From Vulcanococcus sp. Clear-D1 (GTDB lineage: Bacteria > Cyanobacteriota > Cyanobacteriia > PCC-6307 > Cyanobiaceae): a stretch of DNA of 64,000 nt. The DNA is taken from positions 1 to 64,000 of the forward strand of contig NZ_JACVZV010000037.1 in the NCBI RefSeq assembly GCF_014654725.1. Direction: 5' to 3'. The translations under genes were made by a program, and so were the position numbers. Below, in pieces: positions 1 to 12,574 of the stretch (position 1 is its first letter; each line of letters begins with the position of its first letter). Under the pieces are notes generated by a model. That model was given only the letters and a program-made list of their open reading frames with translations. It had not been told where the DNA came from and ran no database searches.

Positions 1-225
1 GCGATCCCAGGACCATTGTCCCGCGAATGGCCCTGGTTTTCCAGAGTCTCCTTAGCCGCTGTCGTCCGTGTTGAGATCAGAGATGCATGGATGCTGTATC
101 GGGTTTGGTGTTTCTACCGAAGCGCTCCTGCTGCATTCCTGCTGGTTTGGTACGTTTTCATTTTTCTGAGCGGCTATGACCTAGCTGGCATCACTTGATG
201 CTTGTTCCTTCTCTAAAAGCTCTCC
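1..225. other. Leader region upstream of the peptide cassette
   Basis: No gene can be supported here. A plus-strand frame is open from the window edge to a stop at 198 and encodes a hydrophobic Trp/Phe/Tyr-rich stretch near its end. It has only a TTG as an internal start, so it could be the 3' end of a gene lying outside the window or a chance frame. Base composition is lower in GC than most of the window, like the peptide genes that follow. The region should hold the promoter of the cassette. Confidence 0.3.
71..100 (+). promoter_or_regulatory. Candidate sigma-70-type promoter of the peptide cassette
   Basis: TTGAGA (71-76) and TGTATC (95-100) are separated by 18 bases and lie about 125 bases upstream of the first peptide gene. 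The match to the -35/-10 consensus is moderate and was found by eye, so this is a candidate only. Confidence 0.22.
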
Positions 226-444
226 ATGGCTTATCTCGTGAATCTTGAGGATCGTGATTCTCAGCTCGTTAATGGCGGCTGGGGTTCGTGGTTTAGCTTT
301 TCCAGCGCCAACTTCAAGAGGGTGACTACCAAAGTAGGTCAAACCAATGCGGCCAATAATCTTGGCCTTGGTGTTCTGAACGGTGCTGGTATTGCTACCA
401 GTGAGCAGATGAATATCTCAGAGATCGCAACATTCGTTCTCTGA
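226..444 (+). CDS. Double-glycine-leader peptide 1 (bacteriocin-like precursor)
   Basis: This is a 72-residue precursor of a probably exported peptide. Residues 1-18 form an acidic leader ending in SQLVNGG, the typical cleavage signal for C39-peptidase ABC exporters. Cleavage after GG would release a 54-residue core that starts WGSW, has no cysteine, and carries the glycine-rich motif NNLGLGVL, shared almost exactly with peptide 2 (477-692). A matching exporter and adaptor lie downstream on the same strand. Absence of cysteine and of any modification enzyme nearby argues against a lanthipeptide. The ATG at 226 has no strong Shine-Dalgarno, but it fixes a normal-length leader. The activity (antimicrobial, signalling or other) cannot be told from sequence. 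Confidence 0.8.
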   Translation: MAYLVNLEDRDSQLVNGGWGSWFSFSSANFKRVTTKVGQTNAANNLGLGVLNGAGIATSEQMNISEIATFVL

Positions 445-476
445 TCCAAATATCTCATCCAAACTCCTTCTGAACA

Positions 477-692
477 ATGGCACATCTTTCCATTCTCGCT
501 GACGACAAGGCTCAGGTTATTGCTGGTGGTTGGGGTTTTTCCCGCATCCGTTTCGCCAAGGCCAGCGGTGTCTATACAGCCCTTGGTCAGGACAGTACCG
601 TGAATAACTTGGGCCTGGGCTTGTTGGGTGGCTTCGGTGGCGCCCAAAGTCTCCAGGGCAATGGCTCCAGTATTGCCACGGTCCTCGGCTGA
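477..692 (+). CDS. Double-glycine-leader peptide 2 (bacteriocin-like precursor)
   Basis: This 71-residue precursor is paralogous to peptide 1. The leader is 18 residues and ends AQVIAGG. The predicted core of 53 residues again begins with a WG pair (WGFSRIRF) and contains NNLGLGLLGG followed by further glycines. There is no cysteine. The gene lies 32 bases after peptide 1 with no hairpin between them, so the two are probably made from one transcript as a possible two-peptide pair. A terminator-like hairpin follows at 705-729. The function is inferred from the leader type and the downstream exporter only. Confidence 0.8.
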   Translation: MAHLSILADDKAQVIAGGWGFSRIRFAKASGVYTALGQDSTVNNLGLGLLGGFGGAQSLQGNGSSIATVLG

Positions 693-704
693 TCTTCCAG
701 TACT

Positions 705-729
705 AGGGCCTGATTCTCGGGCCCTTTTT
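705..729 (+). terminator. Terminator-like hairpin after peptide 2
   Basis: The arms AGGGCC (705-710) and GGCCCT (720-725) form a 6-bp stem with a 9-base loop, followed by a short T run to 729. The stem is short, so partial read-through is likely. It lies between peptides 2 and 3, where it would lower transcription of everything downstream. Confidence 0.55.
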
Positions 730-750
730 CTTCACCCATGAGAGGTTCTG

Positions 751-966
751 ATGTACTTATTCTGCGATGCTGAATCTCAGCTGGTTACTGGTGGATTCCG
801 TATCAATGTAAGCCCGACGATCGCCATTTCCACTGCGGTTGTGACTGGTTTGCAGGGTAATAGCGGCACCAGTCTAGGTATCGGTGTTCTTGGTGACGGT
901 GCTTCGGGATTGGCTCAGATCACTGGGCTGAATCTTTCGACCTACCTTGCCAATTTCTCCTTCTAA
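751..966 (+). CDS. Double-glycine-leader peptide 3 (bacteriocin-like precursor)
   Basis: This is a 71-residue precursor with a shorter 15-residue leader ending SQLVTGG. The predicted core (56 residues) starts FRINVSP and carries TSLGIGVLG, a variant of the NNLGLGVL motif of peptides 1 and 2. The only cysteine is in the leader, so the mature peptide lacks Cys. The start is well supported by AGAGG at 741-745, five bases before the ATG. It is flanked by two hairpins (705-729 and 978-1004), so it may form its own transcriptional unit or be expressed by read-through. Confidence 0.78.
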   Translation: MYLFCDAESQLVTGGFRINVSPTIAISTAVVTGLQGNSGTSLGIGVLGDGASGLAQITGLNLSTYLANFSF

Positions 967-977
967 TTCTCGCTCAC

Positions 978-1004
978 AGCCTGAGCTTGTGGCTCAGGCT
1001 TTTT
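978..1004 (+). terminator. Strong terminator-like hairpin between peptides 3 and 4
   Basis: A perfect 9-bp stem (AGCCTGAGC at 978-986 with GCTCAGGCT at 992-1000) and 5-base loop is followed at once by a T run to 1004. This fits a rho-independent terminator or attenuator 12 bases after the stop of peptide 3 and before peptide 4 and the exporter genes. Confidence 0.75.
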
Positions 1005-1041
1005 GCTGACATTGACTTCTTTCTCTTTTCATCTTCGAATC

Positions 1042-1317
1042 ATGCAATTTCTTGACGAGAAACAGGCTGAGTGTATTAGCGGGGGCAGATTCTCTTCAAT
1101 GGCTGGTCGAGGTAGGGCCCCAGTCGCATTTCTGCTTCGCGGTTTTCTTGGTTTACGTGCTGGCGGTGGACTGGCTCAGTCTGGACTGACTTCGATTGGC
1201 TCTACAGCGATTGATACCACAGTGAATCAGGTGAATCTTGCCTTCAACATCGTGCTCAATGGTGGCTCCATTGTGAATAACCAGTTGAACGGTCTTGATC
1301 TTTCTGTGAGTGCCTGA
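1042..1317 (+). CDS. Double-glycine-leader peptide 4 (divergent precursor)
   Basis: This is a 91-residue precursor. The ATG at 1042 is chosen over an upstream start at 1003 because it gives a 15-residue leader ending AECISGG, like that of peptide 3; the longer form would start inside the terminator region. The predicted 76-residue core has no cysteine. Its first half is Arg/Gly-rich (RFSSMAGRGR, then LLRGFLGLRAGGG), and its second half is Asn/Ser/Thr/Val-rich. It lacks the LGxGxL motif of peptides 1-3. It sits directly before the exporter gene, so it is the only precursor sharing an uninterrupted transcript with the transporter. Confidence 0.75.
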   Translation: MQFLDEKQAECISGGRFSSMAGRGRAPVAFLLRGFLGLRAGGGLAQSGLTSIGSTAIDTTVNQVNLAFNIVLNGGSIVNNQLNGLDLSVSA

Positions 1318-1324
1318 GCGATTG

Positions 1325-3562
1325 ATGGCCATGACCAACTGGCTGGATGCTGTTGCTCGCCTGCGATGGTTAAGACAGCTCCCTGGCTTCAACGAACGGA
1401 CGCCAAGCGACCCCTGCGTGCATCAGTTCGATGAGGAGGACTGTGGTGCTGCCTGTTTGGCGACGGTGTGCCAGAGCCATGGCGAGCGGCTACCGCTTGC
1501 GCTCATACGGCATCGCGTGGGGACGTCATCACAGGGCACGACACTGCTCGGTCTGAAGCGTGGTGCTGAAAGTCTTGGCTTTCATGCCCGTGCTGCAAAG
1601 GCGGATGCCGCTCTTCTCGAGGATTTGGCTTCCTTGCCGATGCCGATCATTTGCCATTGGCAGGGCTGTCATTGGGTGGTGCTCCACGGCTGGCGTGGAA
1701 ACCAGCTCTTGGTGGCTGATCCAGCGGTGGGTTTGAGGCTGCTTTCACGGGACGCGTTTCTGGGTTCCTGGAGCAATGGAGTACTTCTTGCCCTTGAGCC
1801 TGATCCCACTCGCTTCCCCGCCGTGGATGGCGCCAGTGAGGGTTGGCAAGCTGGAAAAGGATTGGGAGCGTTTTTACCTTATGTATTGCCTTTCAAAAAG
1901 CTGTTACTTAAGGCGTTGATCATCAACCTGGCGATAGGTGTGCTGGCTCTGGGGATGCCTTTACTCATGCAGATCCTGACGGATGATGTGTTGGTGCGCG
2001 GTGATGGAGAAATGCTTCGCACCCTTGCTATCGGCATTCTGATGCTGTTTTTATTGCGGGCTTTGCTAAGTCTCTTGCAGGGTCTGCTGGTAGGTCATTT
2101 CGGTCAGAAGCTTCAGTTGCAGATGGTGCTGCATTACGGTCAGCACCTATTGCGTTTGCCTCTCACCTACTTTGAGAGCCGCCGCAGCGGAGAGGTTGTA
2201 AGTCGCCTCGACGACATCCAGAAACTCAATCAGCTGATTGCCAATCTTGCACTTGGTTTGCCAGGCCAATTCTGTATTGCTCTGATTTCACTGGGTTTGA
2301 TGGCTCAATATAGCGGTCCACTCACCCTGGCAGCTCTACTTGGTTATGCCTTGGTGATTGGAGCTCAACTGGCTGTGCTGCCGGCATTGCACAGACGCAC
2401 CCAGGGGCTGCTTGTGCAGTCGGCTGAAAACCAGGGTTTTTTAGTGGAGCTTTTCCGCGGCCAGGCTTTGCTTAAAACCACCCAGGCCAGTCCTCAGGCC
2501 TGGCAGGAGTTTCAACGTAATGAGGGCCGGTTGGCGCGCTTTGCCTGGAATGTTGGCCTGCTTGATCTCAAGGCAAGCACGGTTACCAGCTTCCTTGGAA
2601 ATGTCACCAGTGTGGTCCTGCTCTGGTACGGCAGTTCGTTTGTGCTCAGCCAACAGCTGAGCATCGGTCAGCTGTTGGCCTTCAACGGCATGGGAGCCAA
2701 TGTCTTGGCCTTCCTCGCTGCCATCGGTGGACTGAGTCAGGAACTGATCACGTCTCGGGTGGTGATGGCTCGCTTAGACGATGCGCTTCAGCATCCCGAC
2801 GAGGAGAGTGTTGTCCGTGGCCGCCAGCAGGCGCTCATCCCCGCTGATGGGGACATTGTCTGCAATGACATTTCCTTTCATCACCCTGGTCGCTGCGCCT
2901 TGCTTGATCATCTCGAACTACGTATCCCTGGTGGCAGCACAACAGCCCTGATCGGGGAATCGGGCTGTGGCAAGAGCACCCTAAGCAAGCTCATTGCCGG
3001 TCTGTATCCACTCCAGCAAGGCACGGTGCATTACGGACCATTCAGCTCCCGCGACCTCAGCCTGGATTGTTTGCGGCGACAAGTCGTGCTGTTGCCGCAG
3101 GACGACACATTCCTGAACCGCTCGATCTTTGAGAATTTCGTGTTTGCCTACCCCGAGCTCAGTTATGAGCGGGTTGTGGAGTTGTGTCGCCTCACCCTCG
3201 CCGATGAGTTCATCCGTGATTTGCCAGACGGCTACGGCACGGTTCTCGGAGAGTTTGGAGCCAACCTCTCCGGAGGCCAACGCCAGCGTCTAGCGCTTGC
3301 CCGCGGCCTGGCGAGTGATCCTCCGGTGTTACTGCTGGATGAATCCACATCTGCCCTCGACCCAGTTCTCGAAGCCCGTGTGATGGATCGCTTGTTGGCT
3401 CATCGACTGGGGCGTACCACCATCCTCGTGAGCCATCGGCCTTCGGTGATCCTTCGCGCTGACTGGATCGTGTTTATGGAGAAGGGGGCGGTCCGCCAGC
3501 AGAGCCATCCCCATGACCTTCGCGACCACATCCAGGTTGCGCCCTACCTACAAGCCGCCTGA
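1325..3562 (+). CDS. Peptidase-containing ABC transporter (C39 bacteriocin exporter)
   Basis: This inner-membrane exporter should cleave double-glycine leaders and pump out the mature peptides. From the ATG at 1325 (745 residues) it shows an N-terminal C39 protease domain with Gln34, catalytic Cys40 in DCGAACL, His116 in HWVVL and Asp132 in VADP. A transmembrane block (about 180-460) follows, then an ATPase domain with Walker A GESGCGKST (about 543), signature LSGGQ (about 647) and Walker B LLLDES (about 668). All catalytic elements are present. A GTG at 1310 overlapping the stop of peptide 4, or an ATG at 1331, are alternative starts. The stop overlaps the adaptor gene start (TGATG), so the two are translationally coupled. 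The four upstream precursors are the obvious substrates. Confidence 0.92.
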   Translation: MAMTNWLDAVARLRWLRQLPGFNERTPSDPCVHQFDEEDCGAACLATVCQSHGERLPLALIRHRVGTSSQGTTLLGLKRGAESLGFHARAAKADAALLEDLASLPMPIICHWQGCHWVVLHGWRGNQLLVADPAVGLRLLSRDAFLGSWSNGVLLALEPDPTRFPAVDGASEGWQAGKGLGAFLPYVLPFKKLLLKALIINLAIGVLALGMPLLMQILTDDVLVRGDGEMLRTLAIGILMLFLLRALLSLLQGLLVGHFGQKLQLQMVLHYGQHLLRLPLTYFESRRSGEVVSRLDDIQKLNQLIANLALGLPGQFCIALISLGLMAQYSGPLTLAALLGYALVIGAQLAVLPALHRRTQGLLVQSAENQGFLVELFRGQALLKTTQASPQAWQEFQRNEGRLARFAWNVGLLDLKASTVTSFLGNVTSVVLLWYGSSFVLSQQLSIGQLLAFNGMGANVLAFLAAIGGLSQELITSRVVMARLDDALQHPDEESVVRGRQQALIPADGDIVCNDISFHHPGRCALLDHLELRIPGGSTTALIGESGCGKSTLSKLIAGLYPLQQGTVHYGPFSSRDLSLDCLRRQVVLLPQDDTFLNRSIFENFVFAYPELSYERVVELCRLTLADEFIRDLPDGYGTVLGEFGANLSGGQRQRLALARGLASDPPVLLLDESTSALDPVLEARVMDRLLAHRLGRTTILVSHRPSVILRADWIVFMEKGAVRQQSHPHDLRDHIQVAPYLQAA

Positions 3563-4821
3563 TGGAAAGCCCTTCTTCCGATCTGCCGGTGGCTTCAACC
3601 GGCGAAGCTCTGTCTCAACACCGTCAGCCTGTGTTGCCGCCAACACTGCAGCCAGTCAGTTGCGACGACTTTCTTCCAGAGCCGGGTCCCTGGGCGTCGG
3701 CTTTGGGACGACAACTCTTGCTCCTACTCAGTGTTGGGGCCCTTGCGTTGGCGATCTGGCCCATGCGCGAAACCGTGACAGCTCCAGGCGTTGTGCGTCC
3801 GACTGGTGAGAACACCTTGGTGCAGAGCGAGCAGGGCGGAACGGTGCAACGCGTCTTGCTTCGCCAGAACCAATCAGTGCGTGCCGGTCAGTTGTTGGCA
3901 GTGTTTGATCGTCGGCCTTTGCAGGCTGAGCGGCGTCAACTGGAAGTGGAGTTGTCGGCTTTGCAGGCTCAGGCCCAGCAGGCCCGCAACGAACAGGCAT
4001 CTCTTGACACCCAGGCATCCGCGTTGGAGCGGTTGAGCACATCACTAACAGAGTCGTCACTCCGTGGCGTGGAGCAGGCCAAGGCAGCACTGGCCTTTGA
4101 TCGCAACGAACTACGTCGCTATCGCTCTTTGCAGTCGAGCGGGGCTGTGCCCCGGAGCCTGGTTGAAGAAAAGCAGGCTCGTCAGCTGGTGAGCCAGTCG
4201 GAGGTCCTCAAGGCGCTGCAAGGCGTGACGGAACAGCGGGCTCGTGGCTTGAGCGAGCTTGCGCGCTTGCGCCAGAGCTCCTCTCAAGCGCGTTCATCTG
4301 CCGACGAGTTGAGGAAGCAAGTGGCCCAGCGACGTGCCAGGTTGCAGCAGGTTGATCGTGCTCTCGAACTTGCCACTGTGCGGGCTCCCATCAGTGGTTC
4401 TGTGCTCAGCACCAACCTCCGGCATCCCGGACAGGTCATGCAGCCTGGCGAGTTGGTGGCTGTGCTGGCGCCAGACAAGAGTCAATACGAATTGAAGCTG
4501 CAGGTACCTGCCGAGAGAATCAGCCAGCTTCGTCCCGCTCAGAAAGCGACCTTAAAGGTGAGTGCATGTCCAACGGCGGAATTCGGTGTGTTGCCAGCCC
4601 GTGTCACCAGCGTGTCAGCTGACATCATTCCCCAGCCGGGAGAGCCCAGTGGCACAACTGCGGCGGTTTACGAGGCAGTCCTGCATCCCCTGCAAACCAG
4701 TCTGAGGGGCCGTCAGGGGAGCTGCACGTTGCGCCCAGGAATGAAGCTCACTGGAGATATTGTTACCCGCCGCACCACCGTTCTGATGTTCTTGCTGAAC
4801 AAGTTGAGACTGGGAACTTAG
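3562..4821 (+). CDS. HlyD-family membrane fusion protein (peptide export adaptor)
   Basis: This 419-residue periplasmic adaptor probably links the ABC exporter to an outer-membrane channel. It has a short cytoplasmic N terminus, one membrane helix (about 50-70, LLLLLSVGALALAIW), a lipoyl/beta-barrel half-motif (GGTVQRVLLRQNQSVRAGQ), a long Gln/Ala/Arg-rich coiled coil (about 120-270), the matching second half (TVRAPISGSV) and a C-terminal beta domain. No TolC-like gene is in the cassette, so the channel must be encoded elsewhere. The start overlaps the exporter stop by one base. It is the last plus-strand gene of the cassette; the next gene is convergent. Confidence 0.9.
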   Translation: MESPSSDLPVASTGEALSQHRQPVLPPTLQPVSCDDFLPEPGPWASALGRQLLLLLSVGALALAIWPMRETVTAPGVVRPTGENTLVQSEQGGTVQRVLLRQNQSVRAGQLLAVFDRRPLQAERRQLEVELSALQAQAQQARNEQASLDTQASALERLSTSLTESSLRGVEQAKAALAFDRNELRRYRSLQSSGAVPRSLVEEKQARQLVSQSEVLKALQGVTEQRARGLSELARLRQSSSQARSSADELRKQVAQRRARLQQVDRALELATVRAPISGSVLSTNLRHPGQVMQPGELVAVLAPDKSQYELKLQVPAERISQLRPAQKATLKVSACPTAEFGVLPARVTSVSADIIPQPGEPSGTTAAVYEAVLHPLQTSLRGRQGSCTLRPGMKLTGDIVTRRTTVLMFLLNKLRLGT

Positions 4822-4903
4822 TGCTATCAGCGTGCATGATGAAGGGGACCCCTGTTGGATTCATTTCTTTGGCGTTGTGAGTTGTTGTCGTGGTTTGCCT
4901 GCC

Positions 4904-5617
4904 TTATGGCTTTTGTCGCTGTGGGGTATTCCCAAAGTGTTCTTTGGCAATTGCCAGAAGCTCGGCATCGCTGCAGGCTGTGTCGTCCACGATGGCAAGC
5001 TCCACTCGCTTTTCTGCGGCGTGATGGTGCTGCCTGAGATGTTTCTTGAGTAACTGGCGAAGATCGCTCTCGCCATGCCCGTGACCTATCAGCAACACGC
5101 GATCGGCTTGAAGAACTGCTTGGCTTAATTGATTGAGATAATCGTGATCCGCCGGTGCTCTCTGTCCGGCAACATCTCGATCATGGCGATGAGTCAGACG
5201 CTGATGGTTGCTCCACAGGCCATGCGGTTGCAGCGTTGATAGTTGCACCTCATCGCCATCCAGCCACCACAGGCGTGCGCCACGGTGGTCGAGGTGAACC
5301 ACCAGCCGTTTGGCTTGTTCGCCCCGAGGCTGAGGCGCATCCGCAATCGGGTGCTCGGGGGTGATTCCTTCTTCCTTTAAAAACCGTCTTAGGCGCAACA
5401 CCCCGTCGTCGTCGAGGAGTGGATGGTGTTTGCCTGATGCGGCATGCAGCACAACTGTTCGGCCGCTCGGTGCTTGCAGGTTGATGCGGTGATCGTCTCG
5501 ATGTTCTGTGCGTATGCCAAGATGAATCAGCAGCGCTTCCACATCGTCCATGCGCAGATCATGCTGTAGCGGATGGGCAAATAGTGCGTTCAGTATGCGT
5601 TGATCCTGCTGTTTCAT
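4904..5617 (-). CDS. HicA-like domain fused to a baeRF-like (release-factor-like) domain
   Basis: I read this 237-residue soluble protein as two domains. Residues about 1-85 (MDDVEALLIHLGIRTEHRDD, then SGRTVVLHAASGKHHP and LRRFLKEEGI) resemble the small dsRNA-binding HicA fold. Residues about 105-237 (LVVHLDHRGARLWWLDG, RVLLIGHGHGESDL, a C-terminal ELLAIAKEHFG) resemble the bacterial relatives of eukaryotic release factor domain 3 sometimes annotated as translational machinery proteins. Both assignments are pattern recognition without search. It lies 69 bases after hypE on the same strand, so it may be read with the hydrogenase operon, though no functional link is known. No HicB-like antitoxin gene is adjacent. 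Confidence 0.6.
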   Translation of the reverse strand: MKQQDQRILNALFAHPLQHDLRMDDVEALLIHLGIRTEHRDDHRINLQAPSGRTVVLHAASGKHHPLLDDDGVLRLRRFLKEEGITPEHPIADAPQPRGEQAKRLVVHLDHRGARLWWLDGDEVQLSTLQPHGLWSNHQRLTHRHDRDVAGQRAPADHDYLNQLSQAVLQADRVLLIGHGHGESDLRQLLKKHLRQHHHAAEKRVELAIVDDTACSDAELLAIAKEHFGNTPQRQKP

Positions 5618-5686
5618 TGCTGAGCTGGGAGAGCTATTGTGAACCTATGGATGCTCAAGAAGCATGGCGATACTTTGCAGCTTGCT

Positions 5687-6718
5687 TCAACAGATCCGCG
5701 GCAGCTGCTCTCCCCTCTGCAGGTCCAGGGGTCTCCGAGCACCTAGGTTGTTACGCAGAACTACTGAATGATCATGGGTGAGGCGTTTTCTTTGGATGTC
5801 TCGTTGTTGTACAACACCGATTCGCCTTGCATGCGGGTTGTGCTTCTGTAGGATTTTAAGAGCGCACTCAGAATCTTTCTCCGGGCAGATCACAATCATT
5901 CGCCCCTCGTTGGCCATGCTGAGGGGGTCTAGCCCCAGCAGGTTGCAGGCGCCGTTCACGCTCGGGTGCAGTGGAATCGCGGCTTCTTCCAGTTCGATCT
6001 GACAACAGGCAGCCCGGGCAATTTCATCGCTGGCACTGGCCAATCCGCCCCGGGTGAGGTCACGCAAGCAGTGCACTTCCACCTCCGAGCTGATCAGCTC
6101 CTGCACTGTGGTGTGGAGCGGCGCCAGGTCGCTCTCCAGCGACGAGCGAAAACCCAGCTCTTCCCGTGCGGCCAAGATCGCCACACCATGGCGGCCCAGG
6201 TCGCCACTCACAAGTACAGCATCACTCGCCCGCACAGCACTGGGGTGAATCCGCAATGGATGCTCCACCACACCAATGGCGCTGGTGTTGATGAAGATGC
6301 CGTCGCCTTTGCCTCGCTCCACCACCTTGGTGTCGCCAGTGATCACCGCTACACCGCAAGCATCTGCAGCTGCGCGTATTGAGTGAACCACCCGCTTGAG
6401 CAGGCTCATGGCCAGCCCTTCCTCCAGGATCAGCCCAAGGCTGAGGGCGACTGGTCGGGCACCCGTCATCGCCAGATCGTTGACGCTGCCGAACACGGCC
6501 AGCCGGCCAATGTCGCCCCCGGGAAACACCAAGGGCTGCACCACAAACGAGTCGGTGGTGAACGCGAGTGTTTGCCCCGGACTGTTCAGCAGGGCGGCAT
6601 CGTGCAGCACGCCATCTGCTGGCGCGAACGCCGGCAGTAGCAGCCCCTCGATCAGTTGTTGGCTGAGCCGGCCGCCTCCGCCGTGAGCCAGGAGCACCGT
6701 TTCATGGGAAGGGGCCAT
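5687..6718 (-). CDS. hypE: Hydrogenase maturation factor HypE
   Basis: HypE dehydrates the carbamoyl group placed on its C-terminal cysteine by HypF to a thiocyanate, the source of the CN ligands of the NiFe site. The 343-residue protein begins with the HGGGGRLSQQLI signature and has the AIR-synthase-like ATP-binding fold (FTTDSFVVQPLVFPGGDIG, GSVNDLAM). It ends exactly in PRIC, the invariant tail with the modified cysteine, so it is complete. It starts 3 bases after the hypD stop and is the last hyp gene of the operon. Confidence 0.96.
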   Translation of the reverse strand: MAPSHETVLLAHGGGGRLSQQLIEGLLLPAFAPADGVLHDAALLNSPGQTLAFTTDSFVVQPLVFPGGDIGRLAVFGSVNDLAMTGARPVALSLGLILEEGLAMSLLKRVVHSIRAAADACGVAVITGDTKVVERGKGDGIFINTSAIGVVEHPLRIHPSAVRASDAVLVSGDLGRHGVAILAAREELGFRSSLESDLAPLHTTVQELISSEVEVHCLRDLTRGGLASASDEIARAACCQIELEEAAIPLHPSVNGACNLLGLDPLSMANEGRMIVICPEKDSECALKILQKHNPHARRIGVVQQRDIQRKRLTHDHSVVLRNNLGARRPLDLQRGEQLPRIC

Positions 6719-6721
6719 GGC

Positions 6722-7786
6722 TCAGCGCTGGTAGCGGTAGTAGGCGGCGCAAGCTCCCTCGCTCGACACCATTGGAGCGCCGAGGGGATGGTCTGGTGTG
6801 CAGCGGTTGCCGAAGCTGGAGCAGGCGCTGGGGCGCAAGAGGCCTTGTAGAACTAAGCCGCTGGGGCAGCTGGCCTGCTCAGATGCTTGCTGCGCTGGGC
6901 CCTGGTGATCGTGGGGGCTCATGGCTAGCTGGCCAAACGCTGGCCTCAGGCCGTAGCCGCCCTGGTTGATCTCTCCAAGACCGCGCCAGATGGTGTTGAT
7001 CGGTTCAAACACGTGCTTGAGCAGCGCTTGCGCTTCTCGGTTGCCCGCTTTGCTGACGGCTCTGTCGAAGGCGTTGTCCACCCTTGCCTCACTCCGCTCC
7101 AATTGGCTGATGCAGCGCAGGATCCCCCGCAGCAGCTCCTCGGAGCTGAAGCCTGTGACCACCACCGGCCTGCGATGGCGCTGCACCAGATCCTCCAGTT
7201 CGCTATCGCCCATCACCGTGCACACGTGGCCGGCGGCCAGAACCCCCTGCACCGCACAGCTCGGATCGCTTAGCAGCTGATCCAGCACTGGCACCACCCG
7301 CACATGAGCCACCAGCAGCTTCAGATTGCCCACCGCCTCGGCCAGAGCCTGCTGAGCTAGAAGCGCCGTGGCCGGAGCTGTGGTTTCAAACCCCACGGCG
7401 AAGAACACCACCTGCCGCTGCAGCTGGCTGCGTGCCAGCTCCAGCACATCGAGCGGGGAATAGATCACGCGCACGTCGGCTCCCTGGGCCCGCAGGCTGA
7501 GAAGATTGCGACCGTCGCTACCCGGCACTCGCAGCATGTCGCCGTAGGAGCAAAGGATCACCTCCGGCCGTTCGGCCAGCGCTAGGGCCTGGTCGATTCG
7601 CTCTGTGGCGGTTACGCACACCGGACAACCGGGCCCGTGAACCAGCGTGATTTCGGGCGGCAGCAACTGATCAATGCCATGGCGCAGCAGGGCATGGGTT
7701 TGGCCGCCGCACACCTCCATCAAGGTCCAGGGCCGCGTGGTGTGGCAGTGGATCTGCTCCAGCAGTTGCCTTGCCTCGGCGCTCAT
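6722..7786 (-). CDS. hypD: Hydrogenase maturation factor HypD
   Basis: HypD is the iron-sulfur scaffold that, with HypC, assembles Fe(CN)2CO for NiFe hydrogenase. The 354-residue protein shows the family signatures MEVCGGQTH (about residues 23-31), GPGCPVCVT (about 51-59), a GFETTAPATA segment, and cysteines near the C terminus (SSEGACAAYY). Its ATG overlaps the stop of the flavoprotein gene upstream (ATGA), which indicates translational coupling. The position after nifJ and the flavoprotein, rather than next to hypC, is unusual. Confidence 0.96.
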   Translation of the reverse strand: MSAEARQLLEQIHCHTTRPWTLMEVCGGQTHALLRHGIDQLLPPEITLVHGPGCPVCVTATERIDQALALAERPEVILCSYGDMLRVPGSDGRNLLSLRAQGADVRVIYSPLDVLELARSQLQRQVVFFAVGFETTAPATALLAQQALAEAVGNLKLLVAHVRVVPVLDQLLSDPSCAVQGVLAAGHVCTVMGDSELEDLVQRHRRPVVVTGFSSEELLRGILRCISQLERSEARVDNAFDRAVSKAGNREAQALLKHVFEPINTIWRGLGEINQGGYGLRPAFGQLAMSPHDHQGPAQQASEQASCPSGLVLQGLLRPSACSSFGNRCTPDHPLGAPMVSSEGACAAYYRYQR

Positions 7787-8804
7787 CGCTCACTCCAGTC
7801 CACGGCTAGGGCACCACTACTGCTGAGGGCCCGCAGATATTGAGCTCGCTCGAACGCTTCGGGGCTGGGGTTGCGTTGCTGGCTGAGGCTGCCGCGAAGG
7901 CTGGCAAGGCTTTCGATGTGGTTGTCGTCGAGCCATTGCTGCATCTCCTCGCGCATGCGCTGCAGCGCTCCAGGGCCGTGACGCAGCAGCGCACTCACCA
8001 CCTGGCAGATCTGCGCGCCCACCATCAGCATCCGCAGCACGTCGCGCCCGTTCTCGTTGCCGGTGCTGGCCGCCAGTTCTACGGCCACCCGGCCATGCAG
8101 CAGGCCGATCCAGCGCAGGGGTAGCCGTTGCTCGCTGCCATGGCTCAGCTCCAGGTGCGCCTCGGTGCTGATGGTGTCGATATCGATCTCCGGTTGCAGA
8201 ACACGGTTAAACAGCACCGCGCCGCGGGCTCCCGCAACTGCCAATGCGCGGATCATGGCTGCCAGGCCTGTGTACCAGGGGCTGAGCTTCACCGCCACTG
8301 GCACCGAGAGGGCATTGCACACCTGCCGCACGATCTCCAGCTGCTCGGCCTCTAGTTCTGCGCTGGTGCAGCTGGTGCTGCTGGGCACGCTGTAGAGGTT
8401 GAGCTCGATCGCCGATGCACCTGCTTGCTGCAGGGCCTGGGCTGCCTCGCTCCAATGGCCGCTGTGGGTGCCATTGAGGCTGGCGATCACGGGGATGGAG
8501 AGGGCCTCCCGCGCACGCCGGATCTCTTCGAGGTAGCCCTCGAGACCCAGGTGCTGGGGATCAACGGCCGGCAGGTAGCTCAGCGCTTCGGGATGGCTCT
8601 CACTACAGAGGTGTTGGTGGTGGATCCACTCTTGCCAGTCGCGCTCGATCTGCTCCAGAAAGAGGGAGCGCAACACCACCGCTCCGGCTCCTTCCTGCTC
8701 CAGCTGCTCCAGCCGGTGGAGATCACTGCTTAGGGGGGCTGCGGCCCCCACCACGATCGGGGAGGCAAGCTCAAGGCCCAGGTAGTTGGTGGTGAGGGGG
8801 ATGC

Positions 8805-8808
<4 letters not shown>
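7783..8808 (-). CDS. Dihydroorotate dehydrogenase-like flavoprotein (class 1 related)
   Basis: This 341-residue protein has the TIM-barrel FMN fold of dihydroorotate dehydrogenases: NYLGLELASPIVVGAAAPLS at the start, VIASLNGTHSGHW, an AIELNLYSVPSS strand and VAVKLSPWY. It belongs with the dihydroorotate-dehydrogenase-like group rather than with true PyrD; SPIVVGAA and the loops differ from the usual catalytic Cys/Ser region. It overlaps nifJ upstream (ATGA) and hypD downstream (ATGA), so it is made with the pyruvate oxidoreductase. A redox role coupled to ferredoxin or NAD(P)H is an inference; a pyrimidine role is less likely from this context. Confidence 0.82.
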
Positions 8809-12382
<3,574 letters not shown>

Positions 12383-12386
<4 letters not shown>

Positions 12387-12574
12387 GGCTCCGGCTCCAG
12401 CACCGTGAGCGCCACGCCCACATGCACCAGCAGCTGATCGCCGATCTGAGCCTCCGGCACGCAGGCCAGGCTCACCTGGCGTAGCACACCCCCGAAGCAC
12501 ACATCCCCCATCCGCCAGAGCGGATCGGCGTGCTCGCTGATGCTCACCAATTCACCGGCGACGGCCAGGCACAT
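12383..12574 (-). CDS. hypC: Hydrogenase assembly chaperone HypC
   Basis: This 63-residue chaperone carries the iron-ligand precursor with HypD and delivers it to apo-HoxH. It begins MCLAVAGELV; the Cys2 exposed after Met removal is the essential residue. The length is slightly short for the family. The start overlaps the end of hypF by 23 bases and the stop overlaps nifJ (ATGA), so all three are coupled. It is too small to identify by length alone, but the N-terminal MCLA motif and location are decisive. Confidence 0.93.

Follow-up and report, generated by a model that had tools for sequence, protein, structure and literature searches.

What a cyanobacterium gains from four small peptides with double-glycine (GG) leaders, encoded just ahead of an exporter of their own, is the question raised by the beginning of a contig of Vulcanococcus sp. 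Clear-D1 (Cyanobiaceae; assembly GCF_014654725.1, contig NZ_JACVZV010000037.1), of which we analysed the first 64,000 nucleotides, hereafter the window. Here four precursor genes are followed by genes for a C39-peptidase ATP-binding cassette (ABC) exporter and an HlyD-type periplasmic adaptor (positions 226 to 4821; Table 1). An earlier reading made from the letters alone (the sequence-only reading) had regarded this cassette as an undescribed system of competition or signalling. Judged from its sequence, the kind of system is already known, with the architecture of EbfG/PteB, and the cargo family is newly delimited. The best reading of the peptides, to which we give an even chance, is that of co-secreted, self-assembling beta-arch peptides of a matrix. 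Direct support exists for the cassette, for the peptide family, for the pattern and the alternation found in its cores, for the conserved hairpins between its genes and for purifying selection.

All six genes were found where the sequence-only reading had placed them, the exporter with Peptidase_C39, ABC_membrane and ABC_tran domains and the adaptor with HlyD_3, all above the Pfam cut-offs; with TIGR01843 the adaptor scored 153 bits, below the cut-off of 208.65. Residues Cys40, His116 and Asp132 of the exporter, which we take to be its catalytic triad, are invariant in a 12-row alignment. The genes from the first precursor through the exporter are tightly packed, with 32, 58, 75 and 7 bases between them, and the frame of precursor 4 is open from a TTG at 1003, its leader fitting the ATG at 1042. 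A search of the whole home genome (2.96 Mb) with the precursor profile A1 at E <= 0.001 returned four matches, all in the cassette and all of them rows of the profile itself (E values of 1.4e-21, 3.8e-19, 1.1e-18 and 1.9e-14 for precursors 1 to 4). Four other genomes (loci L025, L026, L027 and L055) carry co-linear counterparts of each window precursor, and precursor 4, searched with its own sequence, was found in 5 of 25 genus genomes, the home genome included. In six genome pairs, the ratio of nonsynonymous to synonymous divergence (dN/dS) was 0.03-0.10 for the exporter and 0.09-0.46 for the pooled cores, the core ratios being rough in five of the pairs because the proportion of synonymous differences (pS) reaches 0.49-0.73 there. 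In the informative pair, L026-L027, core pS was 0.233 and the proportion of nonsynonymous differences (pN) 0.118 in the cores vs 0.005 in the exporter. The cores are thus fast-evolving yet constrained, which a matrix and a bacteriocin would both allow. Since the profile matches of the home genome are confined to the cassette, the counterparts are co-linear and the core dN/dS is low, this cassette of four GG precursors, C39 exporter and HlyD adaptor is real and conserved, not a product of chance. The left edge of the window is base 1 of its contig (C37), so that genes upstream may be missing and the gene set is perhaps incomplete.

The cores of these precursors share an unusual pattern. Precursors beside 19 related exporters were chosen by their leader only (pattern, score and position) and their cores inspected afterwards; in the 55 cores collected in this way the motif Q-x-N occurs 95 times, whereas 2000 shuffles within cores gave 14.2 on average and never more than 27. 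At least one copy is present in 52 cores (13.0 in shuffles), at least two in 42 (1.2), and two copies 12-34 residues apart in 40 (0.5); the distance from the first to the last copy is 17-25 residues in 37 of the 42 multi-motif cores. When 46 of the 55 are aligned, conservation of 90% or more is reached in the cores only by the columns of the two Q and the two N. The motif LGxG(V/L)L, to which the sequence-only reading had pointed in peptides 1-3, is present as part of this wider Q-x-N ... Q-x-N pattern, which also takes in peptide 4; window peptides 2 and 3 each carry one of the two copies in degenerate form. The profiles A1 and A4 were built on the same number of precursors (46 of 55), omitting L030_1, whose core is apparently out of frame, the near copies L060_1 and L060_2, and six that are hard to align (L029_1, L029_2, L034_2, L034_3, L062_1 and L062_2). 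The Q-x-N count uses all 55 cores, and the first-to-last spacing, the alternation and the reverse amyloid tests described below omit L030_1; a second precursor frame of L063, which reads on into the exporter, was left uncounted. Under the profile L029_2 and L062_1 are barely above shuffles (21 and 27 of 200), so the edge of the family is soft. What these sequences delimit is, as we see it, a new precursor family sharing the double Q-x-N pattern, of which we found no account among the top-ranked papers of searches in the open-access literature, supplements lying outside those searches.

Around both motifs the conservation alternates residue by residue: even offsets from the Q are conserved (I/V, T/N, V/L, Q, N, A/G, N/A, G/A) and odd ones variable, a difference that relabelling of columns reached in 11 and 4 of 20000 trials. 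Among orthologues of the four window peptides in five genomes, 67 of 420 pairs differ at even offsets vs 258 of 560 at odd ones, comparisons that are not independent of each other. Such an alternation would be expected of a beta strand constrained on one of its faces, and the alpha-helical moment of conservation gave a z of -1.0.

Table 1. Genes of the cassette and hairpins between them (positions in the window)
Feature	Positions	Strand	Description	Basis
Precursor 1	226..444	+	72 residues; leader 226-279, 18 residues ending VNGG; core of 54	Open reading frame
Precursor 2	477..692	+	71 residues; leader 477-530, 18 residues ending IAGG; core of 53	Open reading frame
Intrinsic-terminator-like hairpin and T-run	705..725	+	Between precursors 2 and 3	Terminator scan and conservation
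Precursor 3	751..966	+	71 residues; leader 751-795, 15 residues ending VTGG; core of 56	Open reading frame
Intrinsic-terminator-like hairpin and T-run	978..1000	+	Between precursors 3 and 4	Terminator scan and conservation
Precursor 4	1042..1317	+	91 residues; leader 1042-1086, 15 residues ending ISGG; core of 76 with VNQVNLAFNIVLNGGSIVNNQLNG	Open reading frame
C39-peptidase ABC exporter	1325..3562	+	745 residues from the first ATG; frame open from GTG 1310	Pfam, alignment, tree
HlyD-type periplasmic adaptor	3562..4821	+	419 residues; ATG overlaps the exporter stop	Pfam HlyD_3

The occurrence of the family in other genomes offers a patchy picture. A profile search for relatives, as suggested with the sequence-only reading, found the precursors in 24 of 399 family genomes; among genus genomes, 11 of the 23 searched had matches. 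Exporter matches were obtained in 12 of 25 genus genomes (E <= 1e-120), in 34 of 399 family genomes (E <= 1e-150) and in 106 of 388 class genomes (E <= 1e-140), the last number including other exporter types; only part of the class-level matches was fetched (40 regions, some of them from the family search). In a maximum-likelihood tree of 71 rows, made by quick search with Shimodaira-Hasegawa-like approximate likelihood-ratio (SH-aLRT) support only, the window exporter falls in a clade of 20 with support 100, whose members all belong to its own family and to several genera; the tree omits L035, a 381-residue fragment below the length limit, and L135, which occupies the same place as L074. All 19 clade loci with upstream DNA show at least one GG precursor directly upstream on the same strand, and each has at least one Q-x-N core; the twentieth, L056, begins 247 bases into its contig. 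None of 13 other same-family exporters, outside the clade, has a same-strand Q-x-N precursor upstream, two of them (L064 and L073) with less than 700 bases of upstream DNA. Of these exporters, L065 is preceded by two opposite-strand GG frames, and downstream of L064 and of L065 there is in each case a GG frame with one Q-x-N. Behind the exporter, an HlyD match follows in the listed relatives except L034, whose contig ends there.

The idea that the precursors always accompany the exporter stood for 21 of the 24 precursor-bearing genomes, which also carry an exporter match (E <= 1e-150), and failed for G073, G116 and G164, incomplete assemblies (80-89% complete) with precursors and no intact cognate exporter. 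In G116 (L252) and G164 (L255) intact Q-x-N precursors are succeeded only by exporter fragments (residues 1-82 and 30-58), either decayed cassettes or assembly breaks, and in G073 no exporter lies within about 8 kb of the precursors. A contig break could explain why precursors and exporter of G181 are on different contigs. Away from the cassette, the profile matched in G116 contig C54 (E 5.5e-11) and weakly in G116 C3, G018 C23 and G151 C446 (E 5e-5 to 5e-4). In a class-wide draw 4 of 378 genomes matched the precursor profile, three of them from the window's own family and the fourth marginal (E 2.6e-4, profile positions 4-51); in these samples, therefore, the precursor family is nearly confined to the family of the window. 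The closest exporter (L055, 90% identical) belongs to G099, a genome placed in another genus, and this, together with the patchy occurrence, suggests a transfer between genera or a misassigned genome.

Other GG frames were observed in some of these genomes. On the minus strand of G181 contig C92 (L257, 3680-4265), a contig other than that of the exporter of this genome, there is a GG pair in which one core has a single Q-x-N and the other none but two NTSTQTAT-like repeats. G018 contig C23, which is not the exporter contig, encodes a GG precursor with SPSI/SPTI repeats, somewhat similar to L029_2 (L259, 4785-5054, minus strand). In G116 contig C3 (L254) two identical frames with GG leaders (6009-6272 and 6981-7244) have a hydrophobic, helix-like core, and our impression is that they resemble pore-forming bacteriocins more than the window peptides do.

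The qualification of undescribed does not hold for the kind of cassette, which was already present in an earlier survey and has one studied example, EbfG1-4/PteB (PMC4997328). In the survey of Wang 2011 (PMC3140520), GG-peptide clusters of this sort are catalogued as bacteriocin clusters; short C39 transporters appear in groups III-V, and group III includes two clusters of Cyanobium PCC 7001 and a single cluster per strain in two strains of Synechococcus elongatus, the latter presumably the locus later shown as EbfG1-4/PteB. By the definition of group III as assembled from the text of that paper, the cassette belongs there: a short C39-ABC exporter and an HlyD protein accompany several GG precursors, and the additional ABC transporter, LanM or S8 peptidase that marks other groups is absent, on DNA whose 5' side ends at the contig end. 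Since the Cyanobium PCC 7001 clusters are counted there, members of the present family may sit in its supplementary list. Work on marine Synechococcus (PMC10783134) deals with modified precursors.

In two genomes, G429 and G410, four GG precursors precede an exporter 52% identical to that of the window, and the locus of the first (L101) contains three published N-terminal EbfG peptides (EbfG1, EbfG2 and EbfG4; PMC4997328), which identifies it as the ebfG1-4/pteB locus of S. elongatus. In this species the GG motifs and the exporter cysteine are required for biofilm (Parnasa 2016, PMC4997328), pteB is described as cistronic with ebfG (PMC9260433), and EbfG1-3 gave amyloid signals in the curli-dependent generator of Escherichia coli (PMC9981879). 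The likeness with EbfG/PteB of S. elongatus PCC 7942 comprises four GG (or GA) precursors, the C39 ABC exporter and an HlyD-homologous frame, in that order, as well as cysteine-free cores (L101 and L102). On the other hand, the double Q-x-N is not seen in the aligned EbfG cores, and HlyD homology starts only after a gap of about 0.5 kb from PteB; the frame that holds it opens earlier, within about 0.1 kb, and is extended at the N terminus. The score of the core profile on EbfG1-4 is reached by 50, 64, 3 and 359 of 1000 shuffles, EbfG3 alone being clearly above them. Mature EbfG peptides were themselves reported to have no homology to proteins of other cyanobacteria (PMC4997328). As far as sequence comparison goes, the secretion machine is homologous to that of EbfG/PteB and the cargo not demonstrably so. 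PteB-like exporters of other cyanobacteria (L103-L120) occur beside GG precursors with larger cores, some of which give the impression of beta-gamma-crystallin-type repeats.

At the motif level, the cores recall the Fap amyloid of Pseudomonas more than they recall curli. The FapB/FapC motif GN-X-G-N-X2-AG-X2-NQQ-X-N (PMC5557850) can be set beside the NxLGLGVLxGxGxAxxxQxN of the cores, a comparison chosen post hoc; secretion of Fap requires a C39-type peptidase, FapD (PMC5557850), and the conserved Asn/Gln make the hydrogen-bond network of the FapC fibril as seen by cryo-electron microscopy (PMC12392863), an Asn/Gln ladder like the one proposed here. The core profile gave three FapC repeat segments 15.2-16.2 bits vs 4.3-4.4 when shuffled, a score reached by 2 of 3000 shuffles, with FapC picked after the pattern had been seen. 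The differences are also clear: Fap employs a periplasmic C39 protein and the outer-membrane channel FapF, with no GG-leader exporter (PMC5557850), a FapC chain mostly unites three repeats, each 38-39 residues long (PMC12392863), and a 2013 survey detected Fap nowhere but in Proteobacteria (PMC3792158). No fapABCDEF operon with a FapF channel stands at the cassette, and a profile search of three gammaproteobacterial genomes, with no positive control, returned nothing. In our view the likeness to FapC reflects convergence towards comparable patterns of Asn/Gln strands and no homology. Curli subunits (CsgA and CsgB) likewise have Gln/Asn-spaced beta-strand repeats of about 20 residues, but follow another secretion route and score at chance with the profile (353 and 346 of 1000 shuffles); for this reason, and with no Pfam curlin match among the 46 precursors, membership in the curlins was rejected.

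From these elements we propose how the cassette may work. The C39 domain of the exporter would cut each precursor after GG, leaving peptides 1 to 4 with computed monoisotopic masses of 5703.88, 5269.73, 5539.92 and 7671.09 Da if unmodified. The unfolded core would leave through the exporter, the adaptor and a TolC-like protein of the outer membrane whose gene lies elsewhere (TolC-type genes are present in the home genome). Outside the cell each core would adopt a beta-arch fold: each Q-x-N would sit in its own strand, a turn rich in Gly would link the two strands, and the conserved face would carry Gln, Asn, Ala and Gly. Stacking of such arches, probably with paralogues intermingled, might give amyloid-like fibres that would hold cells together or attach them to surfaces, the role proposed for EbfG1-3 in S. 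elongatus.

The proportions of the products may be set by the conserved terminators after genes 2 and 3, which would leave the first peptides in excess over the exporter. The position after precursor 2 is kept in four of five loci compared (the window, L055, L026 and L027; in L025 there is a hairpin whose T-run did not pass the filter) and that after precursor 3 in all five, where no site passing the filter follows precursor 1 and only one weak site, in L026, follows precursor 4. Among more distant loci, L028 has a terminator-like site after precursor 2 only and L057 none. The scan of 6 kb gave 11 sites vs 6.9 in shuffles, so that the argument rests on conservation and not on number; the conserved terminators fit an excess of peptide over exporter. 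A scan for sigma-70-like promoters found none in window positions 1-6000 (shuffles give 1.7). In L101 the stretch from ebfG2 to ebfG3 contains an inverted repeat that lacks a T-run; in the window's relatives the first conserved terminator occupies the corresponding position among the genes.

The gene order of ebfG1-4/pteB, the amyloid signals of EbfG1-3, the Q-x-N pattern, its alternation, the FapC scores, the terminators and the TolC-type genes are what we count for matrix peptides, and they bring this reading to evens in our estimate. A number of results weigh against it. The cores are not homologous to EbfG by profile (hhalign of A1 against A2, 0.2%), which leaves gene order and exporter as the sole bridge for the biofilm function, and the quick tree puts the PteB rows outside the 20-row clade of the window exporter and does not place them as its sister. 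A string LAFNI common to peptide 4 and EbfG2 did not change this, and homology of the cores to EbfG was rejected on the same hhalign value. FapC was chosen for comparison after the pattern had been seen, for the likeness of its motif, and profile searches of the PDB with A1 and A4 did not list it. The reverse test on 54 cores was unspecific, with a z of 5.2 for a model of the FapC repeat and of 3.9 for one of CsgA, and with either model 9 of the 54 cores exceeded their own 95th percentile. The hydrophobic periodicity of the cores is not significantly beta (z 1.4), and a soluble beta fold would be another way to account for their alternation. AlphaFold models of precursor 2, whether by itself or together with the three paralogues, were unusable (predicted local distance difference test, pLDDT, of 54 and 41), and the single-sequence model was helical. 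A more ambitious version of the proposal, which we hold only tentatively and see as somewhat improbable, would make the peptides a new class of functional amyloid. In place of one chain with many repeats it would consist of a mixture of subunits of one arch apiece; a C39 type I exporter would trim each of them at a GG leader of its own and secrete it, and a double Q-x-N ladder that converged on the Fap repeat would join them outside the cell into the matrix of picocyanobacterial aggregates.

The strongest competitor, unlikely in our view, is an unmodified multi-component set of class II-type bacteriocins or microcins that inserts into the membranes of close relatives, with immunity encoded elsewhere or intrinsic. 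A C39 exporter with GG leaders is classic for such peptides, and clusters of this kind were catalogued so (PMC3140520); Gly-rich GxG cores, occurrence in about half of the searched genus genomes and cores that change far faster than the exporter (the pN values of L026-L027) go in the same direction. Two of the 46 precursors also touch the Pfam family LcnG-beta (best E 0.0072), a match at chance level for 46 x 24736 comparisons. Against bacteriocins, the conservation of the cores has period two and is not alpha-helical, and the sole studied locus of this architecture works in biofilm. As the sequence-only reading had stated, neither a modifying enzyme nor an immunity gene or regulator is visible in the cassette, by a reading of open reading frames and Pfam on DNA whose 5' side ends with the contig. 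That reading had also placed competition among the possible functions; nothing we found speaks positively for it, and the anatomy of the cores speaks more for assembly.

Non-polymerising beta proteins, surface-bound or soluble, such as a coat, an adhesin cap, a ligand-binding or an anti-grazing factor, are improbable. Period-two conservation fits any beta strand, and the larger GG cores beside PteB-like exporters elsewhere give the impression of folded domains, but cores of 53-76 residues with 55-60% of G, A, S, T, N and Q and a net charge of 0 to +3 would, in our judgement, be unusual for a soluble fold. Extracellular signals of density or kin recognition, with a receptor encoded elsewhere, are very improbable: GG-leader peptides act as signals in some bacteria and the cores vary between species beside a conserved exporter, but neither the cassette nor the single complete flanking gene that was scanned shows a recognisable kinase, receptor or regulator, and four co-encoded paralogues with cores of this length are unusual for pheromones.

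Known peptide families were also considered, and in agreement with the sequence-only reading the cores fell in no named bacteriocin family of Pfam or NCBIfam. The four window precursors gave no Pfam match at E up to 1 and a single NCBIfam match, far under its threshold, and 46 relatives gave scattered weak matches only (best E 0.0072 in Pfam and 0.011 in NCBIfam). The CTB family of bacteriocins (NF038167), also cyanobacterial precursors, matched residues 5-47 of precursor 1 weakly, with 15.7 bits for a curated cut-off of 32, and 3 of the 46 relatives at E up to 5; this family was rejected on its score. Nif11 and NHLP precursors were rejected as well, none being listed for the 46 precursors in Pfam and NCBIfam at E up to 5, and the exporter scored 389 bits with the NHLM model, below the cut-off of 853. 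That the peptides are neither lanthipeptides nor disulfide microcins, as had been proposed, was borne out: the four window cores contain no cysteine, and no LanM match occurs in the cassette and two flanking frames. In the wider family cysteine appears in 3 of 55 cores, one of them the apparently out-of-frame L030_1, and 1 of 46 precursors touches the class I lanthipeptide leader model (E 0.021). A phage origin was rejected, six PHROGs families being touched by one core each (best E 0.0092), and precursor 2 had no plasmid relatives.

If the peptides do build a matrix, some of the picocyanobacterial 'bacteriocin clusters' of genome miners would be matrix-building systems, and the EbfG finding, made in one species, would come to apply to a defined sequence family whose motif can be tested. 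Short co-secreted subunits, instead of repeats in one chain, would then represent another path to an Asn/Gln-ladder amyloid. Cell-to-cell sticking bears on sinking, grazing and biofouling. Even if the peptides are bacteriocins, their family is now delimited and searchable.

Regarding the surroundings of the cassette, the precursors are succeeded only by the exporter and HlyD genes, and the gene after the adaptor is on the opposite strand. Positions 4904-12500 of the minus strand hold the gene for a 237-residue protein and four others, facing the cassette tail to tail; the minus-strand neighbours of this region were read from sequence as hypE, hypD, a dihydroorotate-dehydrogenase-like gene and pyruvate:ferredoxin oxidoreductase. 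In L029, L031 and L033, homologues of these neighbours lie directly upstream of the cassette and in the same orientation.

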